From an uncultured Pelagibacteraceae bacterium (GTDB lineage Bacteria > Pseudomonadota > Alphaproteobacteria > Pelagibacterales > Pelagibacteraceae), in contig CACDSX010000005.1 in the NCBI GenBank assembly GCA_902555655.1, forward strand, positions 1-58,141: 58,141 nucleotides of DNA, in the 5' to 3' direction. Below, one piece after another: positions 7,425 to 17,338 of the stretch. How positions within the stretch are numbered: position 1 is the first letter of the stretch; each line of letters starts with the position of its first letter. The position numbers and the translations under genes are program-made. A model generated the notes under the pieces. That model was not told the DNA's origin, searched no databases, and saw nothing but the letters and a program-made list of their open reading frames with translations.

Positions 7425-10400
7425 ATGGTTAGAAAAGTATTACCGCCGTTAAATGATCAGAACCAAGTTCCAAACATAGCTAGTTCTGGTGAATGGAAAG
7501 CAGAAGATGCTACATTTTTAGAAAAATTAGCTAAGGGCTTAAAAATGGGTGGAGAAGAAGTGGTATCTGCTGCAGATATTAATTCAGTTCCAGATGTTTG
7601 GGCAAGAGTTTTAATAGTTAGAAATGGCTTAGTTGATCAAAGTAAATCTATTATTGATGAATGGAGAGGGACATTAGCTTTGTTGGCATTAGCTCCTTAC
7701 TACAAACATATATATGAATTAAACTCCAGTATAGTAAACATTCAAGACATAAAAGATAATCCATTTACAGGTGGTGCTCCTGCTGGTTCAAACTACGCTC
7801 ACATTGGTAAAATTTTATTTGATGTAATTCCAAAAGATACTATGGCCCAAGGTCAAGATTGGAATGCTATTGGTGTTCTAAACTTTAACAAAAGTGCTAT
7901 AGCAGTAATTAATCCATACACTATGGTTGCAGCCGCAAGGGATTATACGTCTATTGAGAGTATTAGAAAATTACCTTGGTACGAAGATGGTTTCTTAAAA
8001 GATCCTTGTAATGCTAAAGATATGAGAAATGAGCAATATGCTGTTTTATCTCATTATCTTGATAATTTAATTAATGGTATTCAGAGCTTAAGTCCATCAA
8101 ACATGGAAGTATTTAATGCTGTAATGGGTAGACTTCAAGAATTCAAAAGTTCTTGTGATGCTAAAATAGGAAATGTAGAATTTTCTAGCTGGACACCAAC
8201 TAAAGTGAACTTAAACTTACCAGCTCAACCAGTCTACAATTTGTTATCAAAAATTTCTATTGGTGCTACAGATCAAAATGCTAAATTTGATTGTGGTTTA
8301 AAAATAAGACCAGAGTTTGAAGATCAGATCAAAGGAGGAGTATTTGCAGACTTTAGAGTTGCTCAATCAACAGGAAAAACCTTATCAGATATTAGAGTGT
8401 GGAATAATTATTCTCTTAACTCTTTAAGACAAGACGAAAATCTTTCTAAAACATTAAAAAGTGAGTGTGAAAAAGAAGGTTACATATATCTAACTCCAGA
8501 GACAATATTTACTGAAAAGCTTGTGGTGTTTGCAGGAGACAATAGAAAACTAAAAGAACATTCAAGTGATGGGAATCAATTTGCTTATCCAGTTAATAGT
8601 GCTCTTTTAATGTTTATGGATCCAAAATCTTTATCAACTAACTGCATAGTCTCACCAGATGGAGATAATTTTAAAGTAGTTATTTATTTAGAGTTTGTAA
8701 GTGAAAAGGGTAACACTATGAATTACACTCTAGAAAAAATTTATAAAGCTAAGGATGTAGTTAAAAACAGAGGTGTTCCACTTGGATTTAGTGTTTGGCC
8801 TGATATTAAATTTGAAAACTGGGATCAATATTTCTTTTTCTACGATGGAAATGCTCAAGTAAATATTTTACCAAAAAATATTTTTGCTGTAAGAGATATT
8901 AGAAATAAACTAGAGAGTTTATCTGGAGATGATAAAGTAAAATTTATTGATAATATGATGCATTCGCATCAAGTAATTGGTGAAGAAATTCCAATTCAGC
9001 AGACAACTGCAGTAACAGAGCTTAGAACACTTAGATCATCACCAGAGGCAATTCTTTGTAATGTTGCAACTCAATCAGGTGGTAAATCTTATACAGAACA
9101 TAATAAGAGAGTAGATGTTGGTTTAATATTATTTCCAGATGCTCAAGAAGTTCAAGAAACAAGCAATCAGTGGTCTGTTGGTATAGACTTTGGTACGACA
9201 AACTCTTGTGTCTATTACAAAGAGAATAAAGAAAATCCTAAGGAATTAAATTTTAAAAACAGAATAAATCTACCTTATGAACCTGGAACTGATGAAGAAG
9301 AGATAGAAGAAGTTATGCAGGCTCATAAAGAGTTTGTTCCAAGTAGACTTGTCACTATTCCTTTCATGACAATCCTTAGAGAAAGAGCATACAAAGAGTC
9401 GACGGTTGAAAACTTACCGTTTAGAAGTAATTTTATTTACTATGTAGATCAAGTTTTGTATGCGATCCAAGATTTACCTGATGATAAAAGACCACTTAAA
9501 TTTAATTTGAAATGGGACGAAGCTGAACAAAGTCGTACAAAAGTACAATATTTTATTTCTCAAGCAGTATTACAAGCAGCCGTGGAAGCTGCAGCAAATG
9601 GGGTTAAAAGAGAAAATCTAACTTTTAATTTTTCTTATCCTGAAGCGTACAATACTGATCATTTAAGAGCTTTTAAAAGAATAACAAGAAGAGCGGTTAA
9701 TATTGGATTACATGATGAAAATTATAAAACTCAAGAAAAAACAGGATTTGAAACTGAAAGTATCGCAAGTGCATTATATTTTGCAAAAGGACAAGAAGTT
9801 CCTTTTACAGAAAACGTAGTTACAATTGATATTGGAGGTGGAACTTCTGATTTATCAATTTGGCAAGATACCAAACTGTTATGGAGAAATTCATTTAAGC
9901 TTGCTGGTAAAGATGTTTTAATTAATTATCTAACTAATAATTTAACTTTGATCAAAGAGATTAGTGGAAATGATGATTTGTTATTAGAAAGTTATCAAAC
10001 TTTACAAAGTATTAAAACCAACAAAGCTAAATTAGCTAATGGTATTGAATTATTAGTTAACAGTCCACAATTTGGTGAAGCCTTTAAAAAGAAATTTGAT
10101 ATTTTTAGTGGAAAAGAAAAAGGCAAAGAACTTAAAGACTTAACAGAGTTAGCTTTATCAGGAATTCTTTACTATGTTTCACAAGTTCTTAATCATTTAA
10201 TTGAAAATGGAGAATTCCAATCTGGTGCCAACAAATCTAAATCCCTTAGAATTTGTTTAGGTGGAAAGGCTAGTACTTTATATAAAGTTGTGTTTGAAGA
10301 TAGCGAAGATCAGGAAAGTCTTTCTAAGATGGTTTCTAAAGTAACTAAAGGAATTTTTACGAATATAGGAATTGTATTTACAGATACACCAAAGCATGAA

Positions 10401-10841
10401 GTTTCTTATGGTTTATTGGTAGATAAAACGGGTGCAACAGATCTCGATTTAACAGATCGATCTCATGAAACAGTTCTAGGAGAAGATGTTGTAGTCGGTA
10501 AAGAAAAGATTGGTATAGTTTCAAAATTAGATGCTGATAGTCAGTGGCGAGTAAAAGATATTACTCAATTAAAAACTTTTTTAGATTATCTAAAAGGCTT
10601 TTCTAAAATACCTGTTAAGCTTACTAAGAAATTTGAGGGAGATTTAGAAGGAAAAATTAATGCAGAATTAAAAAATGGTCAAGCTAGAGCTCAAGATCTT
10701 AAAAAGAATATGCAATCAGTTGAAGGTGATGATAGTTTAGCCGAACTTCAAAAAACTTCTTCTATTATTGAACCTGTTTTTATTCAGGGGCTTAAACAAG
10801 TAATTAATGAAGTCACGAGTGGAAAATTAAAACTTAGGTAA
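7425..10841 (+). CDS. Large protein with a C-terminal Hsp70/actin-like ATPase domain
   Basis: 1138 residues, the largest gene of the operon and cytoplasmic (no signal or membrane span). The second half carries the actin/Hsp70 fold motifs in order: phosphate-1 GIDFGTTNSC (D588), phosphate-2 IDIGGGTSDLS (D802) and an adenosine-type ICLGGKAS (about 943-950). The N-terminal 580 residues have no motif I recognise and are not the usual Hsp70 arrangement, where the ATPase comes first. No standard Hsp70 substrate-binding domain follows; the last 150 residues are charged and helical. The SrfB family of virulence-associated proteins is a possible relative of similar size and ATPase signature, but I cannot test this here. 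It follows the tubulin-like gene by 2 bases. Confidence 0.75.
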   Translation: MVRKVLPPLNDQNQVPNIASSGEWKAEDATFLEKLAKGLKMGGEEVVSAADINSVPDVWARVLIVRNGLVDQSKSIIDEWRGTLALLALAPYYKHIYELNSSIVNIQDIKDNPFTGGAPAGSNYAHIGKILFDVIPKDTMAQGQDWNAIGVLNFNKSAIAVINPYTMVAAARDYTSIESIRKLPWYEDGFLKDPCNAKDMRNEQYAVLSHYLDNLINGIQSLSPSNMEVFNAVMGRLQEFKSSCDAKIGNVEFSSWTPTKVNLNLPAQPVYNLLSKISIGATDQNAKFDCGLKIRPEFEDQIKGGVFADFRVAQSTGKTLSDIRVWNNYSLNSLRQDENLSKTLKSECEKEGYIYLTPETIFTEKLVVFAGDNRKLKEHSSDGNQFAYPVNSALLMFMDPKSLSTNCIVSPDGDNFKVVIYLEFVSEKGNTMNYTLEKIYKAKDVVKNRGVPLGFSVWPDIKFENWDQYFFFYDGNAQVNILPKNIFAVRDIRNKLESLSGDDKVKFIDNMMHSHQVIGEEIPIQQTTAVTELRTLRSSPEAILCNVATQSGGKSYTEHNKRVDVGLILFPDAQEVQETSNQWSVGIDFGTTNSCVYYKENKENPKELNFKNRINLPYEPGTDEEEIEEVMQAHKEFVPSRLVTIPFMTILRERAYKESTVENLPFRSNFIYYVDQVLYAIQDLPDDKRPLKFNLKWDEAEQSRTKVQYFISQAVLQAAVEAAANGVKRENLTFNFSYPEAYNTDHLRAFKRITRRAVNIGLHDENYKTQEKTGFETESIASALYFAKGQEVPFTENVVTIDIGGGTSDLSIWQDTKLLWRNSFKLAGKDVLINYLTNNLTLIKEISGNDDLLLESYQTLQSIKTNKAKLANGIELLVNSPQFGEAFKKKFDIFSGKEKGKELKDLTELALSGILYYVSQVLNHLIENGEFQSGANKSKSLRICLGGKASTLYKVVFEDSEDQESLSKMVSKVTKGIFTNIGIVFTDTPKHEVSYGLLVDKTGATDLDLTDRSHETVLGEDVVVGKEKIGIVSKLDADSQWRVKDITQLKTFLDYLKGFSKIPVKLTKKFEGDLEGKINAELKNGQARAQDLKKNMQSVEGDDSLAELQKTSSIIEPVFIQGLKQVINEVTSGKLKLR

Positions 10842-10843
10842 AA

Positions 10844-12760
10844 ATGAATAGTATCTTTAAAAATTTATTAATTCTATTTTTTTTTATATTTTCTATAAAT
10901 TCTAATGTGTTAGCTTTTCATAAAAAGGGAAATTCTCAAACTAAAATTGAAATCACTGAAGGATTAAAAAAAAAAGATGTTCAACTAAGATATTGTACAT
11001 CTAGTGTAAAAAAATTGATTATTACAGAAGAATTAATTGACAAAAGCGAAAATAAAACTGTAGAGGAACAATTAGAAGAATTTGATCCCGATAAGCAAAA
11101 AACTTTAATAAAAAAAGAATATTATGATGTAAAATCTTATCATTCGGTTAAAGCTAAACCATATAAAGGTATACTTTTTTTAGATATGCTCAAGGATCTA
11201 AAAAAAATTGATGCAACAACACCCTTTTCAAACATTCTAAGTTTTTATTGTGTTCAAAATTTACCAGAGGAAGGTAAAACAAAATCTTTTAAATTAAATG
11301 AGAAGATCAAAAAACTTTATAACGAACTAGCTACTGATAACGGCCTTACAAAAGCATCTGATCCTATTGGTGATGAGATTTTCACAAAAGGAAAAATTAG
11401 TTTAGATAGAGATAATCTAATAATTGCAGATGCAAGGTTTATAATAGATGAGAATAATAAGAGAAAGAAGGAAGCAGAATCTAAAGCAGCAGCTGATAAA
11501 AAAATTAAAGAGGAGAAAGATTGGCTAGCCGCAAATCAACAACCACTTTTAGATAAAATTGACAAAAAAATTAATGCTTTTGATGATAAAATTGCAGAAG
11601 TAAATAATGAATATAAGCAATTAAAAATTGATTATGAGAAATTCGAAAATGATTTTAAAGAAAAAATAATAGAAGTTGAGGATAAATTAGAGGACGTTGA
11701 TAGATCAAAAAGTGAATTAAAAGAAAAAGCAAAAGAACTTAGATCAGCAAAAAGAGAATTTTTATCAACTAATATTTTAGATGATTTTAAAGATAAATTT
11801 AATTCTACAAAAAGAATTAAAAGTAAAAATTACCCAAATTATAAAGATTTAGAAAAATTAAGAGATGCTGTTGCAAAAGGAAAGAAAAAGAGACAATTCA
11901 CGAATAAAAAGAAAGGGTTTTTTGTTCGATGGGAAAGATTAGAAAACTCTAAATTAAATATAAAACAAAGTGATAAGATTGGCGCTTTAAGTGCTGAAAT
12001 TAAAAAGGCTGAATCTAATATAGTTAATAATATTGATAGTTTAATTTTAGAAATTGATAATTTAGAGGAGGAATTTGGTAGTCAGCTTCCTTGGAAATTA
12101 ATTATTATTGGTATTGCAGTGTTCATAGTTATTACTGGTGTTGGTGCTTATGTTTATTTAAATAATAGAAGAATACAAAAATTACAAGAAGAGGCAGATA
12201 AAAAGGTTGGATCATTAAAAAGTGATTTAGAAGGAAGATTAAAAGATACCTCTGAACAAATTAAATCTGTAGGTAGAGCTGCGACTAGATCAGGACAATC
12301 TGGAACTTCACAACAAGAGCAAGTAGTTGAAGAAAAACCTAAATCTCAAGAGGAAATTATAGCTGCAAAATATGATGAATTAGTTTCCGACTATAGAGAG
12401 GCTTTAGATGATTTTGCTAAGGTCGCTAAATTTAAACAAAAGTGGAATGGTTTAGCTTTAAGTAGAAAAGAAAGACAAGATGGAACTAAAACTATTTTAG
12501 TTAGTTCACCAAGAGCATTTGAAAAAGCAGATATATGGTGTGTAACTTTTAGTGATAAATACTTTGCATTTGCTGGATCTACTGTGAGATCAAATATGGC
12601 AACTTATATGAATCTAGATTTTGAAAAAGCTAGTAGAGAATTTAAAGGTGTGTTTTCTATTTCAACTGGAACTAATTATACATGTGAACCATCTGTTTTA
12701 AGAAAAGGTGGTGCTGGATTTGTAGTTGAAAGAGCAGGAAAAATAGTTTTCCCAACTTAA
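10844..12760 (+). CDS. Signal-peptide, coiled-coil, single-span membrane protein with a cytoplasmic C-terminal domain
   Basis: 638 residues. A signal peptide (1-24, ending VLA) exports the N-terminal part. Residues about 205-310 and 380-412 are strongly charged heptad-like coiled coil. One membrane span is at about 418-441 (IIIGIAVFIVITGVGAYVYL), followed by basic NNRR, which places the C-terminus in the cytoplasm. After another short coil (445-480) a compact domain of about 130 residues (505-638) contains two Trp and two Cys and ends KIVFPT; I do not recognise it. The topology makes this the natural link between the periplasmic VWA protein and the cytoplasmic tubulin- and Hsp70-like proteins. 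It is spaced 2 bases from the gene before and 1 from the gene after. Confidence 0.65.
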   Translation: MNSIFKNLLILFFFIFSINSNVLAFHKKGNSQTKIEITEGLKKKDVQLRYCTSSVKKLIITEELIDKSENKTVEEQLEEFDPDKQKTLIKKEYYDVKSYHSVKAKPYKGILFLDMLKDLKKIDATTPFSNILSFYCVQNLPEEGKTKSFKLNEKIKKLYNELATDNGLTKASDPIGDEIFTKGKISLDRDNLIIADARFIIDENNKRKKEAESKAAADKKIKEEKDWLAANQQPLLDKIDKKINAFDDKIAEVNNEYKQLKIDYEKFENDFKEKIIEVEDKLEDVDRSKSELKEKAKELRSAKREFLSTNILDDFKDKFNSTKRIKSKNYPNYKDLEKLRDAVAKGKKKRQFTNKKKGFFVRWERLENSKLNIKQSDKIGALSAEIKKAESNIVNNIDSLILEIDNLEEEFGSQLPWKLIIIGIAVFIVITGVGAYVYLNNRRIQKLQEEADKKVGSLKSDLEGRLKDTSEQIKSVGRAATRSGQSGTSQQEQVVEEKPKSQEEIIAAKYDELVSDYREALDDFAKVAKFKQKWNGLALSRKERQDGTKTILVSSPRAFEKADIWCVTFSDKYFAFAGSTVRSNMATYMNLDFEKASREFKGVFSISTGTNYTCEPSVLRKGGAGFVVERAGKIVFPT

Positions 12761-12761
12761 T

Positions 12762-13619
12762 ATGATTTATAAATTTATTGATAATAATGGTTCAGAAATA
12801 TCAGTTAACTCTTTAGAAAGTTTACAGGCTTTAGTTGATAGTGATACTATTAATGAAAGTACTAAAGTAAAAGCTGGACTAAGAGGGAAGTGGACAATAG
12901 CCTTAGAAATAGAGGGATTAATCTTTAACACTAAAGACGAAGTTCAGAATATTTCAGAACCAGAGGAAGATATTAAGTCTTTTATAACTCAATCAGAGAA
13001 CTCTTCTAAAAAAGATGAGATAGAAGAAATTAAAGAGAAAGTTGTAACAAAAAAAGAGGAAGAAAAAATTGATGAGGAGGAAACTAAAGTAGCACAGGAA
13101 GTCTCTGAATATGAAAATAATGAAAGTTCGAATGATACCTCCGATTATTATACTGAAAAATTTGAAAATAATGATAATGTAGATGAATTTATGGCACCTA
13201 GTTTACCAGAAGCAATAAAGATTTGTTTTAAAAAGTATTTTGACTTTAAAGGTAGGGCTAGTAGATCTGAATACTGGTATTTTATTCTTTTCATATTTCT
13301 TGGTTATGGAGCTGGTTTTTTATTAGGCTTAATCACACCAGCTTTGTTTTGGTTGTTAGGAATTTTTTTTATAGGAATAATTATACCAGCTATAGCAGCT
13401 ACGACTAGAAGACTACATGACATAAATAAAAGCGGATGGTTTCAAGCTTTACCAATACCACCAGGAATTTTAGAAACTATATTTGCGACAAGTAGAAATG
13501 AGACAGGAGAAATAATTTTTTTAATTATAGGTTTAGCAATTTATATATATTTACTAGTTTTGTATTGCACTGCTGGGGATAGTAAAACAAATAGATTTGG
13601 GAAAAATCCTTTAAAATAA
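12762..13619 (+). CDS. GYF_2-like N-terminal domain fused to a DUF805 membrane domain
   Basis: 285 residues. Residues 1-55 (LQALVDSDTINESTKVKAGL, then RGKWTIALEI) resemble the GYF_2-type domain that often precedes membrane domains. Residues 60-145 are a very acidic Glu/Lys/Asn linker. Residues 152-285 form a DUF805 domain: FKGRASRSEYWYF at its start, RRLHDINKSGWF in the middle, several hydrophobic spans, and the usual NRFGKNPLK ending. It is the last gene of the operon, 1 base after the coiled-coil protein. Its stop codon lies inside the left copy of the 113-base tRNA-Leu repeat, so the operon ends exactly where the recombination boundary begins. Confidence 0.75.
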   Translation: MIYKFIDNNGSEISVNSLESLQALVDSDTINESTKVKAGLRGKWTIALEIEGLIFNTKDEVQNISEPEEDIKSFITQSENSSKKDEIEEIKEKVVTKKEEEKIDEEETKVAQEVSEYENNESSNDTSDYYTEKFENNDNVDEFMAPSLPEAIKICFKKYFDFKGRASRSEYWYFILFIFLGYGAGFLLGLITPALFWLLGIFFIGIIIPAIAATTRRLHDINKSGWFQALPIPPGILETIFATSRNETGEIIFLIIGLAIYIYLLVLYCTAGDSKTNRFGKNPLK

Positions 13620-13725
13620 AAAAAATTTACTTATAGGTCTTGTTCAATTATAAATATTAGCATAAACACTCATGAAATTCATTAATGCCCTCGTGGTGAA
13701 ATTGGTAGACACAAAGGACTTAAAA
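13613..13725 (+). repeat. Left copy of 113-base direct repeat: tRNA-Leu promoter plus tRNA 5' half
   Basis: This aligns without gaps to 16402-16514, with about six mismatches, five of them in the first 26 bases. It covers the tRNA promoter (TTGTTC at 13640-13645, 17 bases, then TAAACA), the leader, and the tRNA-Leu(UAA) gene from its first base (13687) through the anticodon loop CTTAAAA. After 13725 the two copies diverge completely, so this copy cannot make a tRNA. It looks like a recombination footprint with its crossover in the anticodon loop, a known target for tyrosine recombinases. Confidence 0.9.
13687..13725 (+). pseudogene. tRNA-Leu(UAA) fragment, 5' half only
   Basis: Identical to the first 39 bases of the intact tRNA-Leu at 16476: acceptor 5' strand, D arm, 5' anticodon stem and loop. 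The sequence that follows (GCCAAGGGATAG) does not form the anticodon stem, variable arm or T arm. It is a remnant, not a gene. Confidence 0.88.
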
Positions 13726-13744
13726 GCCAAGGGATAGAAGTTAA

Positions 13745-13885
13745 AGTCAGTCCATAGTAGTCCAAGCTAGTCTAAAACATCCTATAAAATCTCATTCTTC
13801 AATTTAGCTTTTAATTAAGATTGGAAAATAAGACTAATTAAATTTGTTCAAACTGGTACTCAACTGGCACCTGAAGAGATAATAT
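13745..13885 (+). repeat. Cluster of short phased repeats and a 35-base repeat, possible recombinase arm sites
   Basis: AGTC occurs at 13745, 13749, 13759 and 13769; the last three sit in AGTCC/AGTCC/AGTCT at an exact 10-base period, one helical turn. ATCCTATAAAATC at 13779-13791 is repeated in perfect inverse at 16359-16371. Bases 13851-13885 (two AACTGG-type units, then a GAGATAA) match 16372-16406 with four mismatches. The block is non-coding and fills the gap between the tRNA fragment and the HtrA-like gene. The layout resembles the arm region of an integrase attachment site, but no integrase gene is present. Confidence 0.55.
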
Positions 13886-13888
13886 TAT

Positions 13889-15127
13889 ATGCTTTTATTA
13901 ATGAAAAAACTTTTAGGAATCCTGGTTCTGGGTTTATTATGGTGCAATTTTGGAATTGCAGTCAGTCTCACTTACGATGATCTAAAAAAATCAGAAAAAG
14001 CTTTAATAAAAAATCCAGAGGATGTTTTAGTTCTATCATCTACTAATACAGGTTTTATACAGTCTAAAATATCGAAAGATTATTTAAATTATTTTAACGA
14101 TTATTTTATTGCAAGAGAGGACTGCTTAGCAACCCAAGTCAGTCTAAAATTCCCAGCTTACTGGTGGTTAGAAGTAGTAGATTGTACTTACAGAAATGAA
14201 AAAAATATAATTTATAAATATAATTTAGACTTACTGTTTGACATAGCACACGAAAGATATTTAAATTTACATAGTGCTGCTAAGAAGCAAGTATCATTAA
14301 GCAAAAATAAAGGTGATGTTGGTTCTTTTTTGTGGACAGAAAGAAGTGTAATAATAAATAGTTTTCAAAAAATGGAGATGTTCCTTGAAAGAGTATATTT
14401 AGCAGAACTAAATAAAGACTCAGATCCAAAAGGTCTTGAAATTGATGATGATGAAATAATATCAGCTTCTTCAGGTTCGGGTTTTTTTGTTTCTAAAGAG
14501 GGACATATAATTACAAATTTTCACGTAATAGATAATTGCAATGTAGTAAAAGTTAATTTTAAAGGAAAACAAGTAAATACTAAAATTATTGCAATTGATA
14601 AAAAAAATGATTTGGCAATTATTCAAACAGATATCAATCCTTCAAAAGTGCTTCCTGTATCAAATAAAGATGTTACCTTATTGCAGGATGTAATTGTTGC
14701 TGGATACCCTCTAGGGAAAAGTATTAGTAGTTCCATTAAGATGCATAAAGGAAGCGTTACAGCTTTGACTGGTTATGAGGATAATTATTCAAATTTTCAA
14801 ACTGACGCAACTATAAATCAAGGTAATAGTGGAGGACCAATAATAGACAAATATGGAAATGTTGTTGGTATCGCTGTTGCTACATGGGTGGAACAAGGAG
14901 TACAGGGAATTCATTTTGGAATTAAATCTTCAGTTTTAAAAACATTTGCAAATTCTAAAGAATTAAATTTTTTACCACCAAATCGTAGAGAAATTTCTGA
15001 GAAAAAACTTGGAGAATTAATTTCGGATTCAACTACTTATTTAGAGTGTTGGATGACTGGTGCAAAAATTAAAAAAATGATTGCAAAAGCTGATAGCAAA
15101 AAAGCATTCTTTAGTAAATTCAAATAA
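13889..15127 (+). CDS. HtrA-like trypsin-fold serine protease, secreted
   Basis: 412 residues with a hydrophobic leader (either the ATG at 13889 or the one at 13901 gives a workable signal peptide; 13889 has a GAAGAGA upstream). The protease domain is about 185-365. The triad is H212 (ITNFHVID), D241 (NDLAIIQT) and S314 (NQGNSGGPII), as in S1C/HtrA proteases. There is no PDZ domain after it, unlike DegP/DegQ. Residues 25-180 form an unassigned domain with a few Cys and Trp. The gene lies inside the tRNA-Leu repeat bracket and overlaps the next gene by 1 base. It is the second trypsin-like protease within 11 kb, but its sequence is clearly different from the lipoprotein protease. Confidence 0.82.
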   Translation: MLLLMKKLLGILVLGLLWCNFGIAVSLTYDDLKKSEKALIKNPEDVLVLSSTNTGFIQSKISKDYLNYFNDYFIAREDCLATQVSLKFPAYWWLEVVDCTYRNEKNIIYKYNLDLLFDIAHERYLNLHSAAKKQVSLSKNKGDVGSFLWTERSVIINSFQKMEMFLERVYLAELNKDSDPKGLEIDDDEIISASSGSGFFVSKEGHIITNFHVIDNCNVVKVNFKGKQVNTKIIAIDKKNDLAIIQTDINPSKVLPVSNKDVTLLQDVIVAGYPLGKSISSSIKMHKGSVTALTGYEDNYSNFQTDATINQGNSGGPIIDKYGNVVGIAVATWVEQGVQGIHFGIKSSVLKTFANSKELNFLPPNRREISEKKLGELISDSTTYLECWMTGAKIKKMIAKADSKKAFFSKFK

Positions 15128-16329
15128 TGAAAAAAATATCAAAATTTACTTTATTATTTTTTTTATTATTGAATTTTTTTACAATTGCAAAATCAGAAAT
15201 TATAGAAGGTTTTTGTTTAGTTAAACGTTCAGATCTCGACATTGCAAAATTAGCTACTGAGGATTATTACAGATTTTTAGGAAAAGAGATTAAGTTTCTA
15301 GTAAGTTTTGATGAAAAATTATTAGCTGATGTATCAGAAGAAGGGGAGCTTTCTGTAATTACTGGAATGTATGGGGGTTCATTAGAATTTGATCAAAAGT
15401 TACAAAAAAATGGAAAAATATTAACTTATAAAAATGAAATTAATGTAACAGGAGATAAAGAAACTGATTTGATTAAATATAGTTATAAAAATAAGTTACA
15501 AATTGTTGATAATAAAATTACAAGTTTTACAGCTGTAGTTGATCAAACAGGATTTTCAACGAATAAGTGGAATTTTCAAATAGATTGTAGAGATTACTCT
15601 TATACAAAAGATGAAAAATTAGAGGCTAAAAAAAAACCTATAATAAAAAAAAAAAAAGATTGTCCAGAAAACATGCCAAAAGCTATGTGTGAATTAATGC
15701 AAAAAATAGAAAATGATAAAAATAAAAATACAAAATCAAAAACAAATTGTCCAGAAAGCATGAATGAAGATTCATGTAAAAAATTTCAAGAAATAATTGA
15801 ACAAATGAAAAACAGCGGTGAAATCGTAAAAAAATCAGAAAAAAAGAATGTAAATAATTTTGATGTTAAAACAGAATACACATGCATGGTAAAAGGTAAC
15901 AATGCTGATACCCCAGCCTGGACAATTTCTACTAATACTATTAGCAAGGTAGGAATGGTTGTTGGTTCTGGAAAGTATCTAATAGAAAATTCATGTTGCC
16001 CAGAAAAAGGACAAAGACTAGGAATTTATGATGAAGATGCAAAATTAAAATGGTTTGATTTAAGTGATGGATATTTATATTTAGACTTAATTGAAAAAAC
16101 TGACGACAAAATACAATATAAAAAATTTAGTTTATTAATTGAACCATCACTAACTGAAAGAATTAATAAATTGTTTGATGGAACTGAAAAAGCTAAAAAG
16201 AGTTATAATAGCGATCTAATTAGTGTTAATTCTTATATTGGCGAAGAAGAAAAATTTTTTTATTCTGCAAAAGCGATTTATAGAGATAGCAGAAATTCTA
16301 AATCTGTCTTTGATGCTGTATGTGAATAA
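15127..16329 (+). CDS. Secreted protein with two cysteine-containing repeats, unknown function
   Basis: 400 residues with a signal peptide (about 1-23). The N-terminal domain (24-160) is beta-rich by composition. A Lys-rich linker then carries two copies of a CPExM motif: CPENMPKAMCELMQKI (about 178-193) and CPESMNEDSCKKFQEI (about 213-228), each a Cys pair in a short helix. The C-terminal half (240-400) includes a CCPEKGQRLG stretch. I recognise no family. It shares its start with the stop of the HtrA-like gene (TAATGA) and is probably co-transcribed with it, so a substrate or partner of the protease is a fair guess. Nothing else supports that. Confidence 0.6.
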   Translation: MKKISKFTLLFFLLLNFFTIAKSEIIEGFCLVKRSDLDIAKLATEDYYRFLGKEIKFLVSFDEKLLADVSEEGELSVITGMYGGSLEFDQKLQKNGKILTYKNEINVTGDKETDLIKYSYKNKLQIVDNKITSFTAVVDQTGFSTNKWNFQIDCRDYSYTKDEKLEAKKKPIIKKKKDCPENMPKAMCELMQKIENDKNKNTKSKTNCPESMNEDSCKKFQEIIEQMKNSGEIVKKSEKKNVNNFDVKTEYTCMVKGNNADTPAWTISTNTISKVGMVVGSGKYLIENSCCPEKGQRLGIYDEDAKLKWFDLSDGYLYLDLIEKTDDKIQYKKFSLLIEPSLTERINKLFDGTEKAKKSYNSDLISVNSYIGEEEKFFYSAKAIYRDSRNSKSVFDAVCE

Positions 16330-16358
16330 AAAAATAATTTAATGATGATTTACAATAG

Positions 16359-16406
16359 GATTTTATAGGATAACTGGTACTCAACTGGTACCTAAGGAGA
16401 TAAAAT
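16359..16406 (+). repeat. Right-side partner of the short repeats (13-base inverted repeat and 35-base direct repeat)
   Basis: GATTTTATAGGAT (16359-16371) is the exact reverse complement of 13779-13791. It is followed directly by 16372-16406, which matches 13851-13885 with four mismatches and contains a perfect GGTACC. Here the 35-base unit touches the 113-base repeat, while on the left it lies about 125 bases beyond it, so the two ends are not simple mirror or tandem copies. Confidence 0.75.
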
Positions 16407-16514
16407 AAAAAAATTTTACTTATTAAACTTGTTCAATTATAAATATTAGCATAAATACTCATGAAATTCATTAATGCCCTCGTGGTGAAATTGGTAGACA
16501 CAAAGGACTTAAAA
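16402..16514 (+). repeat. Right copy of the 113-base direct repeat (promoter plus 5' half of intact tRNA-Leu)
   Basis: This is the partner of 13613-13725, separated from it by 2.7 kb of insert. This copy runs on into a complete tRNA gene and so is the functional one. Confidence 0.9.
16429..16457 (+). promoter_or_regulatory. Promoter of tRNA-Leu(UAA)
   Basis: -35 TTGTTC (16429-16434), a 17-base spacer and -10 TAAATA (16452-16457), placing initiation about 12 bases before the tRNA. The same elements are duplicated at 13640-13668 with -10 TAAACA. Confidence 0.6.
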
Positions 16515-16561
16515 TCCTTGCCGCTTGCGGAGTGCCAGTTCGAGTCTGGCCGAGGGCACCA
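16476..16561 (+). tRNA. tRNA-Leu(UAA)
   Basis: Acceptor stem GCCCTCG pairs with CGAGGGC. It has discriminator A and an encoded CCA (16559-16561). The anticodon stem is AAGGA/TCCTT, the loop CTTAAAA gives anticodon TAA, and the long variable arm is of leucine type. The T arm is AGTTCGAGTCT. It is the target of the 113-base duplication. The nadK start codon lies only 6 bases downstream. Confidence 0.97.
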
Positions 16562-16567
16562 CTACAG

Positions 16568-17338
16568 ATGAAAAATTATAAAGTAATTTGTTACAAAGGT
16601 GACAGGTCTTTAAAAATAAAGACTGCTCTTGTCAAAATACTAAAAAAAAATAATTTCAAATATTCTAATTTATCAATTGTGATTGGCGGGGATGGATTTA
16701 TGCTACAAACATTAAAAAAAAATAAAAATTCTAAAAGTTTTTTCTATGGAATAAACTCTGGAAATTATGGTTTTTTAATGAATAAATTTAATCCAAAAAA
16801 TTTAATAAAAAATTTATCCAAAGCAAAAATGATCACAATTTCACCTTTGGAAATGACTGTTAGAAATAACAAAAAACAAATTAAAAAATATCTAGCAATT
16901 AATGAAGTATCAATTTTAAGACAAAGTAGACAGGCTGCTTCATTGTCTGTTAGTTACGGATCTAAAATAGTTATTAGAAAACTAATTTCAGACGGGGTAC
17001 TAGTCTCCACTCCAGCAGGGAGTACTGCTTATAATCTTTCAGTACATGGTCCCATTTTAAGTTTAAATTCAAAAAAATTGACGATAGTTCCAATTAGTCC
17101 CTTCAGACCAAGAAGATGGAAAGGAAAAATTGTTAATGATAAGTCTAAAATTAATATTAAAAATTTAAATTCAACAAAAAGACCAATTAGTGCAGTAGCT
17201 GATAATCTAGAAGTAAGAAATGCAAAAAATATAATTATTAGATCAAATAAAAAGATTAGATTTAATTTATTATATGATCAAAATAGAAGCTTACAAAAAA
17301 AAATTAAAATTGAACAACTAAGAAAAGAAACTAGTTAA
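16568..17338 (+). CDS. nadK: NAD kinase
   Basis: Phosphorylates NAD+ to NADP+ in the cytoplasm. 256 residues from the ATG at 16568. The frame stays open into the tRNA, but an upstream start would lie inside tRNA-Leu and add non-homologous residues. Family motifs are present: GGDG (40-43), NSGNYGFL (63-70), NEV (112-114) and TPAGSTAY (148-155). The length is close to that of short alphaproteobacterial NadK. There is no Shine-Dalgarno, and the 5' end of any mRNA is probably set by tRNA 3' processing. The last 8 bases overlap the convergent FAH-family gene. Confidence 0.95.
   Translation: MKNYKVICYKGDRSLKIKTALVKILKKNNFKYSNLSIVIGGDGFMLQTLKKNKNSKSFFYGINSGNYGFLMNKFNPKNLIKNLSKAKMITISPLEMTVRNNKKQIKKYLAINEVSILRQSRQAASLSVSYGSKIVIRKLISDGVLVSTPAGSTAYNLSVHGPILSLNSKKLTIVPISPFRPRRWKGKIVNDKSKINIKNLNSTKRPISAVADNLEVRNAKNIIIRSNKKIRFNLLYDQNRSLQKKIKIEQLRKETS

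Follow-up and report, generated by a model that had tools for sequence, protein, structure and literature searches.

How did two genes come to lie between two copies of a tRNA promoter and 5' half in a member of SAR11, bacteria that are among the most abundant and are commonly regarded as poor in mobile elements? The locus lies in a 58,141-nucleotide (nt) stretch of contig CACDSX010000005.1 (assembly GCA_902555655.1, an uncultured Pelagibacteraceae bacterium), here called the window, and the element in question runs from 13726 to 16514. We consider it likely that this is a small cargo cassette that entered by site-specific integration at the anticodon loop of tRNA-Leu(TAA), through an integrase acting in trans for which short repeats at the cassette ends would serve as arm sites. 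Integration itself is well supported, and we infer the supply of integrase in trans, the arm-site role, the order of insertion and the route of transfer. The evidence comes from the structure of the ends, the matching of their repeat units, recurrence across genomes, tandem arrays and integrase-bearing relatives at the same core; the cassettes of this SAR11 family are probably mobile.

A repeat search of the window returned a direct repeat of 117 nt (13612-13728 versus 16401-16517, 94% identical). Within it, the 113-base blocks 13613-13725 and 16402-16514 agree at 107 of 113 positions, with mismatches at 13625, 13635-13638 and 13667; the first-pass annotation, made from the letters alone, had put the differences at about six, and there are exactly six. 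It had also described blocks that stop at the anticodon loop, an intact tRNA gene downstream of a duplicated promoter and 5' half, and only two genes between the repeats. Both blocks indeed run through CTTAAAA, the tRNA-Leu(TAA) anticodon loop, and terminate with it. ARAGORN called a single intact tRNA at this locus, at the right copy (16476-16561, anticodon 16510-16512), and none in the left block, 13613-13725. Two open reading frames (ORFs) of at least 60 amino acids (aa) lie between the blocks, both on the plus strand, the first with a peptidase match and the second with a start resembling a signal peptide. Nested inside the outer pair, and absent from the first-pass annotation, is an inner repeat pair, AACTGGTACTCAACTGG[C/T]ACCT, at about 13851 and 16372, which proved to tell most about the locus. 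The parts of the locus are:

13613..13725, plus strand: left copy, promoter region and tRNA-Leu 5' half to the anticodon loop, now without its 3' half
13726..13852, plus strand: conserved left end, class A, like the sequence after the loop in many inserts
13745..13772, plus strand: three AGTC motifs spaced 10 nt apart, candidate arm or accessory sites, read from the sequence; similar motifs occur in left-end classes A, B and C
13780..13791, plus strand: TCCTATAAAATC, an inverted match to 16359-16370, read from the sequence and recurring in other inserts
13853..13870, plus strand: left address repeat CTGGTAC / CTGGCAC, 11-nt period, with GAGATA following at 13876-13881
13889..15127, plus strand: cargo gene 1, trypsin/HtrA-like peptidase, 412 aa (Trypsin_2, PF13365, E 8.5e-27)
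15127..16329, plus strand: cargo gene 2, 400 aa, with a start that by eye resembles a signal peptide and without a Pfam match at 0.01
16358..16373, plus strand: conserved right end GGATTTTATAGGATAA, similar in many inserts
16374..16391, plus strand: right address repeat CTGGTAC / CTGGTAC, with GAGATA following at 16397-16402
16402..16514, plus strand: right copy, promoter region and 5' half serving the intact tRNA, from the repeat comparison
16476..16561, plus strand: intact tRNA-Leu(TAA), called by ARAGORN
16503-16519, plus strand: AAGGA-CTTAAAA-TCCTT, the proposed core, whose loop at 16508-16514 is the proposed crossover region

In a genus sample of 300 genomes the tRNA block was matched in 229, many of them with two matches. 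We compared 76 loci, namely the window and 75 fetched loci spanning 4-17 kb around the tRNA. An extra promoter and 5'-half copy lies upstream in 50 of the 76 at a score above 15 (42 above 60, 36 above 90), a proportion that may be biased by the selection of the 75 from the 229 for similarity to the window and length of upstream contig; upstream sequence is shorter than 3 kb in seven of the 76. Eleven loci have an address repeat before the tRNA only, with no extra copy, and 15 have neither copy nor end repeat. Comparison with other SAR11 genomes, which the first-pass annotation had recommended, thus yields different inserts between the same repeats and some loci with none. Its interpretation survives in part: integration at the tRNA stands, but the event is not unusual for SAR11, given the extra copies in 50 of 76 loci and the use of the same 5' half by the satellites L139 and L140 and the pelagiphage HTVC105P described below. 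An assembly artefact, which it had named as a ground for refuting the repeat, is unlikely because the layout recurs in many separately assembled genomes, some titled SAG.

Inserts also accumulate in tandem. Fourteen of the 50 multi-copy loci hold at least three copies (score above 15), the window itself having one insert. The best score against the block profile falls on the functional copy in 42 of the 50, and this is consistent with the left copies being relics, although selection on the functional copy and the choice of loci push the same way. In the window, the left copy (13613..13725) is presumed to be the displaced original, and the right copy (16402..16514) would be cassette-borne; a tRNA promoter and 5' half seem to arrive as part of the cassette. 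When promoter copies were compared, no base cleanly divided the 67 with an address repeat from the 52 without one, so the cassette origin of the right copy is unproven by sequence.

The ends of the inserts are conserved. Three left-end classes open most inserts after the loop, each with AGTC motifs about 10 nt apart: class A (gccgagggat..AGTCAGTCCATAGTAGTCC), class B (tagtttgagttg..AGTCTCTaatAGTCTC) and class C (aacatagggtagag..AGTCTCacacAGTCTC). Most inserts end, before the promoter, near GGATTTTATAGGATAAC, a 7-base direct repeat with an 11-nt period plus GAGATA. The 7-base unit, which we call the address, differs among inserts: CTGGTAC in the window, and CCAGCAC, CTTGCAC, CTAGTAG, CTCGGAA, CTAGACG and others elsewhere. 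A search of 84,980 bacterial and archaeal genomes with the right-end pattern gave 114 stretches; among the 80 of these that were listed, the titles of 79 give Pelagibacter, Pelagibacteraceae or Pelagibacterales, and that of the remaining one gives Bacteroidetes. The same 80 of 114 yield 68 distinct repeat pairs, 64 of them in phase. The two copies at a right end covary, with 18 of 22 distinct 7-mers identical and a per-base match of 0.96 against 0.63 when shuffled.

The address is also matched across the insert. In 46 of 51 measurable segments a unit at one end recurs unchanged at the other (the best of four comparisons counting, with the ends measured separately), where shuffled pairing gives a mean of 4.1 and a maximum of 12 in 5000 shuffles; the count is 45 of 50 without the trivial case L173, and two of the 51 rows come from L141, which is outside the 76 and had been selected because of its integrase. 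Of the 76 loci, 39 contain one or more segments in which a pair could be measured at both ends. This test left out 19 of 70 segments and confined the left search to 118-134 nt after the loop, and because of that limit the search was repeated over 450 nt without restriction on position: an exact left pair was found in 42 segments, 41 of them placing it 124-128 nt past the loop. Class and unit are linked as well, class C left ends pairing with CTAGA units in nine of nine cases against two of 38 for classes A and B together, a count over 47 of the 51 rows that omits L173, L032_4534, L171 and L177, of which L171 would count against the link.

Which enzyme would recognise such ends? By Pfam neither ORF of the window cassette is an integrase, a replication gene or phage-like. 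Integrases do occur in relatives at the same site. A satellite integrase was found in five of the 300 genus genomes (G120, G158, G159, G168 and G202; E 1e-8) and its profile in four of 397 family genomes; none was found, among the matches listed, in the genomes of the 76 loci, all of these genomes being incomplete. Those of G120 and G168 belong to elements of 8.75 and 7.7 kb that also have a primase-like gene and are flanked by 5'-half copies before the same tRNA (satellite loci L139, 8.75 kb, and L140, 7.7 kb). The satellites encode a tyrosine recombinase and an AEP-TOTE/DUF5906 primase-like protein (Pfam), integrase and replication genes being identified by Pfam in L139 and the viral contig L075 and by similarity in L140, and they share the core and the kind of end repeat with the cassettes. 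The unit of the G120 satellite, CCAGCAC, is that of several cassettes, and the integrase-less insert L043 has its first 48 left-end bases in common with the G168 satellite.

Four viral contigs (L075, L111, L120 and L126) resemble the satellite element. Two viral scans yielded five loci apiece, with four in common; L294 and L295 were left out. L075 (7.7 kb) is probably circular because its termini overlap by 99 bp, and it joins address repeat, own promoter, 5' half and left end, which is the phage-type attachment site (attP) layout predicted from the chromosomal ends. Such related elements in viral contigs are the sole hint bearing on packaging by a helper phage.

Within the integrases, divergence in residues 1-66 and 67-118 tracks the unit (Mantel r 0.93 and 0.87, exact p 0.0056, n=6), and that of the core-binding part does so less (r 0.48, p 0.08). 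The L120 integrase combines an L140-like N-terminus with an L075-like core-binding part. A wider set of 31 viral contigs has an integrase-like ORF just before the tRNA-Leu 5' half; these ORFs were not verified by profile, and several of the contigs are nearly identical. Tandem repeats with a 10-nt period accompany 12 of 14 such ORFs of at least 335 aa and none of 17 shorter ones, a length grouping chosen after the data had been seen; a prior motif rule (10 of 11 versus 2 of 20) had overlooked extended proteins, and the Fisher p of 6e-7 overstates the association, which comes from few lineages. The association supports the repeats being arm-type sites. In L076, L087, L088, L101 and other viral contigs, N-terminally extended integrase-like ORFs occur with tandem GTGTCCT- or GTGGCGT-type repeats of 10-nt period between the ORF and the attP core, and shorter ORFs are without them.

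A search for PF00589 among 78 genomes matched 60, mostly through one protein of about 306-328 aa that is Xer-like by length only; it is not a full test for integrases because the G202 integrase escaped it. In the window's own genome PF00589 matched a single protein (G000:C1:97249-97749), which at about 301 aa is shorter than the 325-aa open frame in many relatives.

On the preferred reading, a circular cassette would carry, in order, the right address repeat, the tRNA promoter, the 5' half to CTTAAAA, the left end and the left address repeat. It would meet the chromosome in a cell expressing a matching tyrosine integrase, which a related satellite or phage would provide in trans, the cassette encoding none. 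Crossover inside the 7-base loop, between AAGGA and TCCTT, would leave the chromosomal promoter and 5' half on the left, fused to the cassette, and would join those of the cassette to the chromosomal 3' half, so that the function of the tRNA is preserved. Further insertions at this one loop would stack cassettes with the newest nearest the tRNA. The variable end repeats would be arm-type binding sites, their unit being the address that selects an integrase for each cassette. Satellite or phage particles, vesicles and DNA uptake are candidate routes from cell to cell.

Several observations weigh against this reading, or against parts of it. A scan of the satellites found the address repeat at the right end only, so the left repeat of the cassettes is dispensable for at least some of these integrases and may serve a different purpose. 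The integrase comparison rests on six proteins, in which the linker (r 0.78, p 0.011) and the catalytic domain (r 0.76, p 0.033) also correlate with the unit; the arm-domain family PF13356 matched below the cut-off (E 0.043) in one of four segments, and an AlphaFold model of the integrase was set aside as unusable (mean pLDDT, the per-residue confidence score, 34). A measurable repeat pair is missing at one or both ends in 19 of 70 segments, L171 has a class C left end with unequal units at its ends, and nine of the 50 multi-copy loci lack a repeat before the functional tRNA; some left copies in those nine may be unrelated to cassettes. Among the viral contigs no circular or packaged integrase-less cassette was seen, one exact class-A left-end pattern had no match, and the right-end pattern had one, in L089. 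This viral contig, with PhoH-like and other phage-like genes (the PhoH relatives all below 60% identity), has at its terminus a right end of SAR11 type with promoter and tRNA-Leu 5' half (L089:4945-5129, unit CCTGTAC as read from the sequence) and stops 35 bases past the loop; it is either a cassette end inside a myophage or possibly a chimera.

Could the matched units instead reflect descent from one site? A two-step origin, in which a short empty form is basic and its address repeat was later entered, and thereby duplicated, by cargo, would make the repeat a cargo-insertion site and no integrase arm. Such an empty form exists: in L173, where the 5'-half copies lie at 13600-13646 and 13802-13916 (oriented) with 155 bp between them, a mini-cassette without cargo consists of left end, address repeat CTCGGAC and GAGATA followed by promoter and 5' half. 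The duplicated part takes in the GAGATA tail, and the one-sided repeats of the satellites fit as well. We nevertheless regard this origin as unlikely. It leaves unexplained the covariation of 11-bp-spaced copies within a single end, which points to recognition by a protein; L173 could equally be a deletion between repeats; and no enzyme that could insert cargo in this way was found, none having been sought.

Less probable than this is that homologous recombination across the 113-bp repeats moves the inserts, the tRNA being a shared anchor and the ends passive. The copies are mostly 88-98% alike (range 75-98%), and the satellite integrase is rare (five of 300 genomes), as such an account would have it, but recombination alone would not predict the fixed geometry of the left end (41 of 42 exact pairs at 124-128 nt), the class-matched ends or integrase-bearing relatives with like ends. 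Least probable of all is that the address repeats are operators of a cassette-specific regulator, set before the first cargo gene and the tRNA promoter and ignored by the integrase: the first plus-strand ORF does begin tens of bases past the left repeat in most inserts that have one, and the cargo does face the tRNA, yet the Pfam scan, which surveyed the window cassette alone, recognised no regulator there, and the satellite repeat tracks the integrase N-terminus.

What the cassettes carry is varied. The comparison kept 56 of the 70 segments, excluding 14 (two satellites, segments without proper ends and one empty form). They measure 0.86-6.3 kb (median 2.5 kb; 21 of 56 below 2 kb) and hold 1-10 ORFs of at least 100 aa, 146 of 151 of which are directed towards the tRNA. 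Over all 70 segments, 119 of 218 ORFs are singletons. Relatives of the window peptidase were found by tblastn in four of the first 40 loci, every one inside an insert between 5'-half copies, and a fifth is in L167; the PADLOC match of the window peptidase itself, RT-Protease_XI (E 1.3e-23), is confined to the peptidase part. Single PADLOC scans gave defence matches at 1e-8 for 10 of 30 hand-picked proteins and no match for 20: a type IIG restriction enzyme with a specificity subunit in L037, a methyltransferase with a specificity subunit in L057, Zorya ZorA/ZorB in L149, a Mads-like protein in L043, a caspase-like protein in L154, and in L071 a Cas4-like protein adjoining one with restriction-enzyme-like matches. 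The Pfam and PADLOC tallies refer to ORF set A2 (top 25 families among the matches listed, 1 of 101 ORFs left out). A cluster of 28 ORFs is type IV pilin-like by eye. Pilin-like ORFs, also by eye, fill the insert L147:3871-9441 (11 ORFs) and others in L141, L033, L038 and L145, which suggests that cassettes carry surface variation.

The flanks differ in how widely they are conserved:

12762..13619, plus strand: DUF805 gene, upstream flank (Pfam)
16568..17338, plus strand: NAD kinase-like gene, downstream flank, named by recognition with no family search behind the name

All 40 of the fetched loci tested have a homologue of the NAD kinase-like gene within about 2 kb 3' of the tRNA. Only two of these 40, L036 and L070, yielded the window's upstream genes, with gene order preserved in both. 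L036 (genome G235) has three of them, followed by two small ORFs recognised by eye and by a repeat-free intact tRNA, and is a candidate for an empty site, though not base-exact. Further upstream in the window, 7425-12760 holds a 1138-aa protein with weak actin-like Pfam matches only and a 638-aa protein without a Pfam match.

How does this arrangement compare with known systems? The common 3'-type tRNA integration was considered and rejected for the window, whose layout differs in having a 5' fragment upstream of an intact tRNA. A separate 3' fragment was found among the first 40 fetched loci only in L050 (genome G180), where the tRNA lies at 14086-14171 and the fragment at 15271-15326 (oriented), about 1.1 kb downstream, as in the common type; G180 has extra PF00589 matches on a different contig. 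In the available part of the Islander report (PMC4383910), 159 islands have a 5' fragment of the tRNA gene against 3760 with a 3' fragment (of 3919), so that outside SAR11 5'-fragment integration is a minority mode. The Islander 5'-fragment islands share with the window a 5' fragment upstream of an intact tRNA gene, and an attP centred on the anticodon is one of the two site classes in that part of the report, as here. Islander demands an integrase inside and at least 2 kb, whereas the window insert has no integrase and many kept segments are shorter.

Additive flexible islands of tRNA-anchored cassettes, described in the available parts of PMC7771536 (Ca. Actinomarinales) and PMC10872708 (Ca. 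Methylopumilus fGI-2), share with the locus here small tRNA cassettes, direct repeats of partial tRNAs and variable content at a conserved place; in SAR11, too, partial tRNA repeats bound variable inserts at one locus. In Methylopumilus the repeated stretch is the final 20 bases of tRNA-Lys, whereas in SAR11 it is the 5' half together with about 75 bp of promoter, and the same parts of both reports make no mention of matched address repeats at both cassette ends. A tycheposon, as related at second hand in PMC10872708, has a border tRNA, a tyrosine recombinase and 4-200 kb; the window cassette has the tRNA but no recombinase and 2.7 kb.

Phage satellites and virion-encapsidated elements, as generally understood, share the tRNA target with the integrase-bearing relatives here, and the window cassette differs from them in having no recombinase or primase, 2.7 kb and two cargo genes. 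In pelagiphage HTVC105P the integrase gene is directly followed by 45 bases that match the tRNA-Leu 5' half exactly; that is a whole phage genome, in which no promoter match extends past these 45 bases and no SAR11-type left end is visible by eye past the core. As in integron arrays, the cassettes are cargo-only and lie in one-way arrays, with a recombinase that would act in trans, though here with a tRNA core and arm-like repeats. Of reports available in part, PMC7318151 and PMC7542561 (SAR11 genomes) and PMC12595487 (a Pseudomonas island) make no mention of this locus in those parts, and no SAR11 tRNA-Leu cassette array or end-matched address repeat is described in the titles and abstract openings among the literature matches listed; Hackl 2023 (tycheposons) and Eppley 2022 (virion-encapsidated elements) may cover part. 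Additive islands anchored in tRNAs are thus known, and what is new here is the matched end repeats, the 5'-side design and the missing integrase.

More tentatively, SAR11 may maintain an integron-like cassette economy without a resident integrase, in which cargo-only cassettes bearing restriction-modification, Zorya, pilin-like and peptidase genes circulate via tRNA-Leu(TAA), an arm-site address paired at each end licensing each to one or a few satellite or phage integrases. If so, a single tRNA locus would act as a cassette dock in about half or more of the sampled loci, the specificity of tyrosine-integrase arm sites would become testable over dozens of natural variants, and the gain and loss of defence and surface genes in streamlined cells would be explained by an end code that links cargo lacking an integrase to particular ones.

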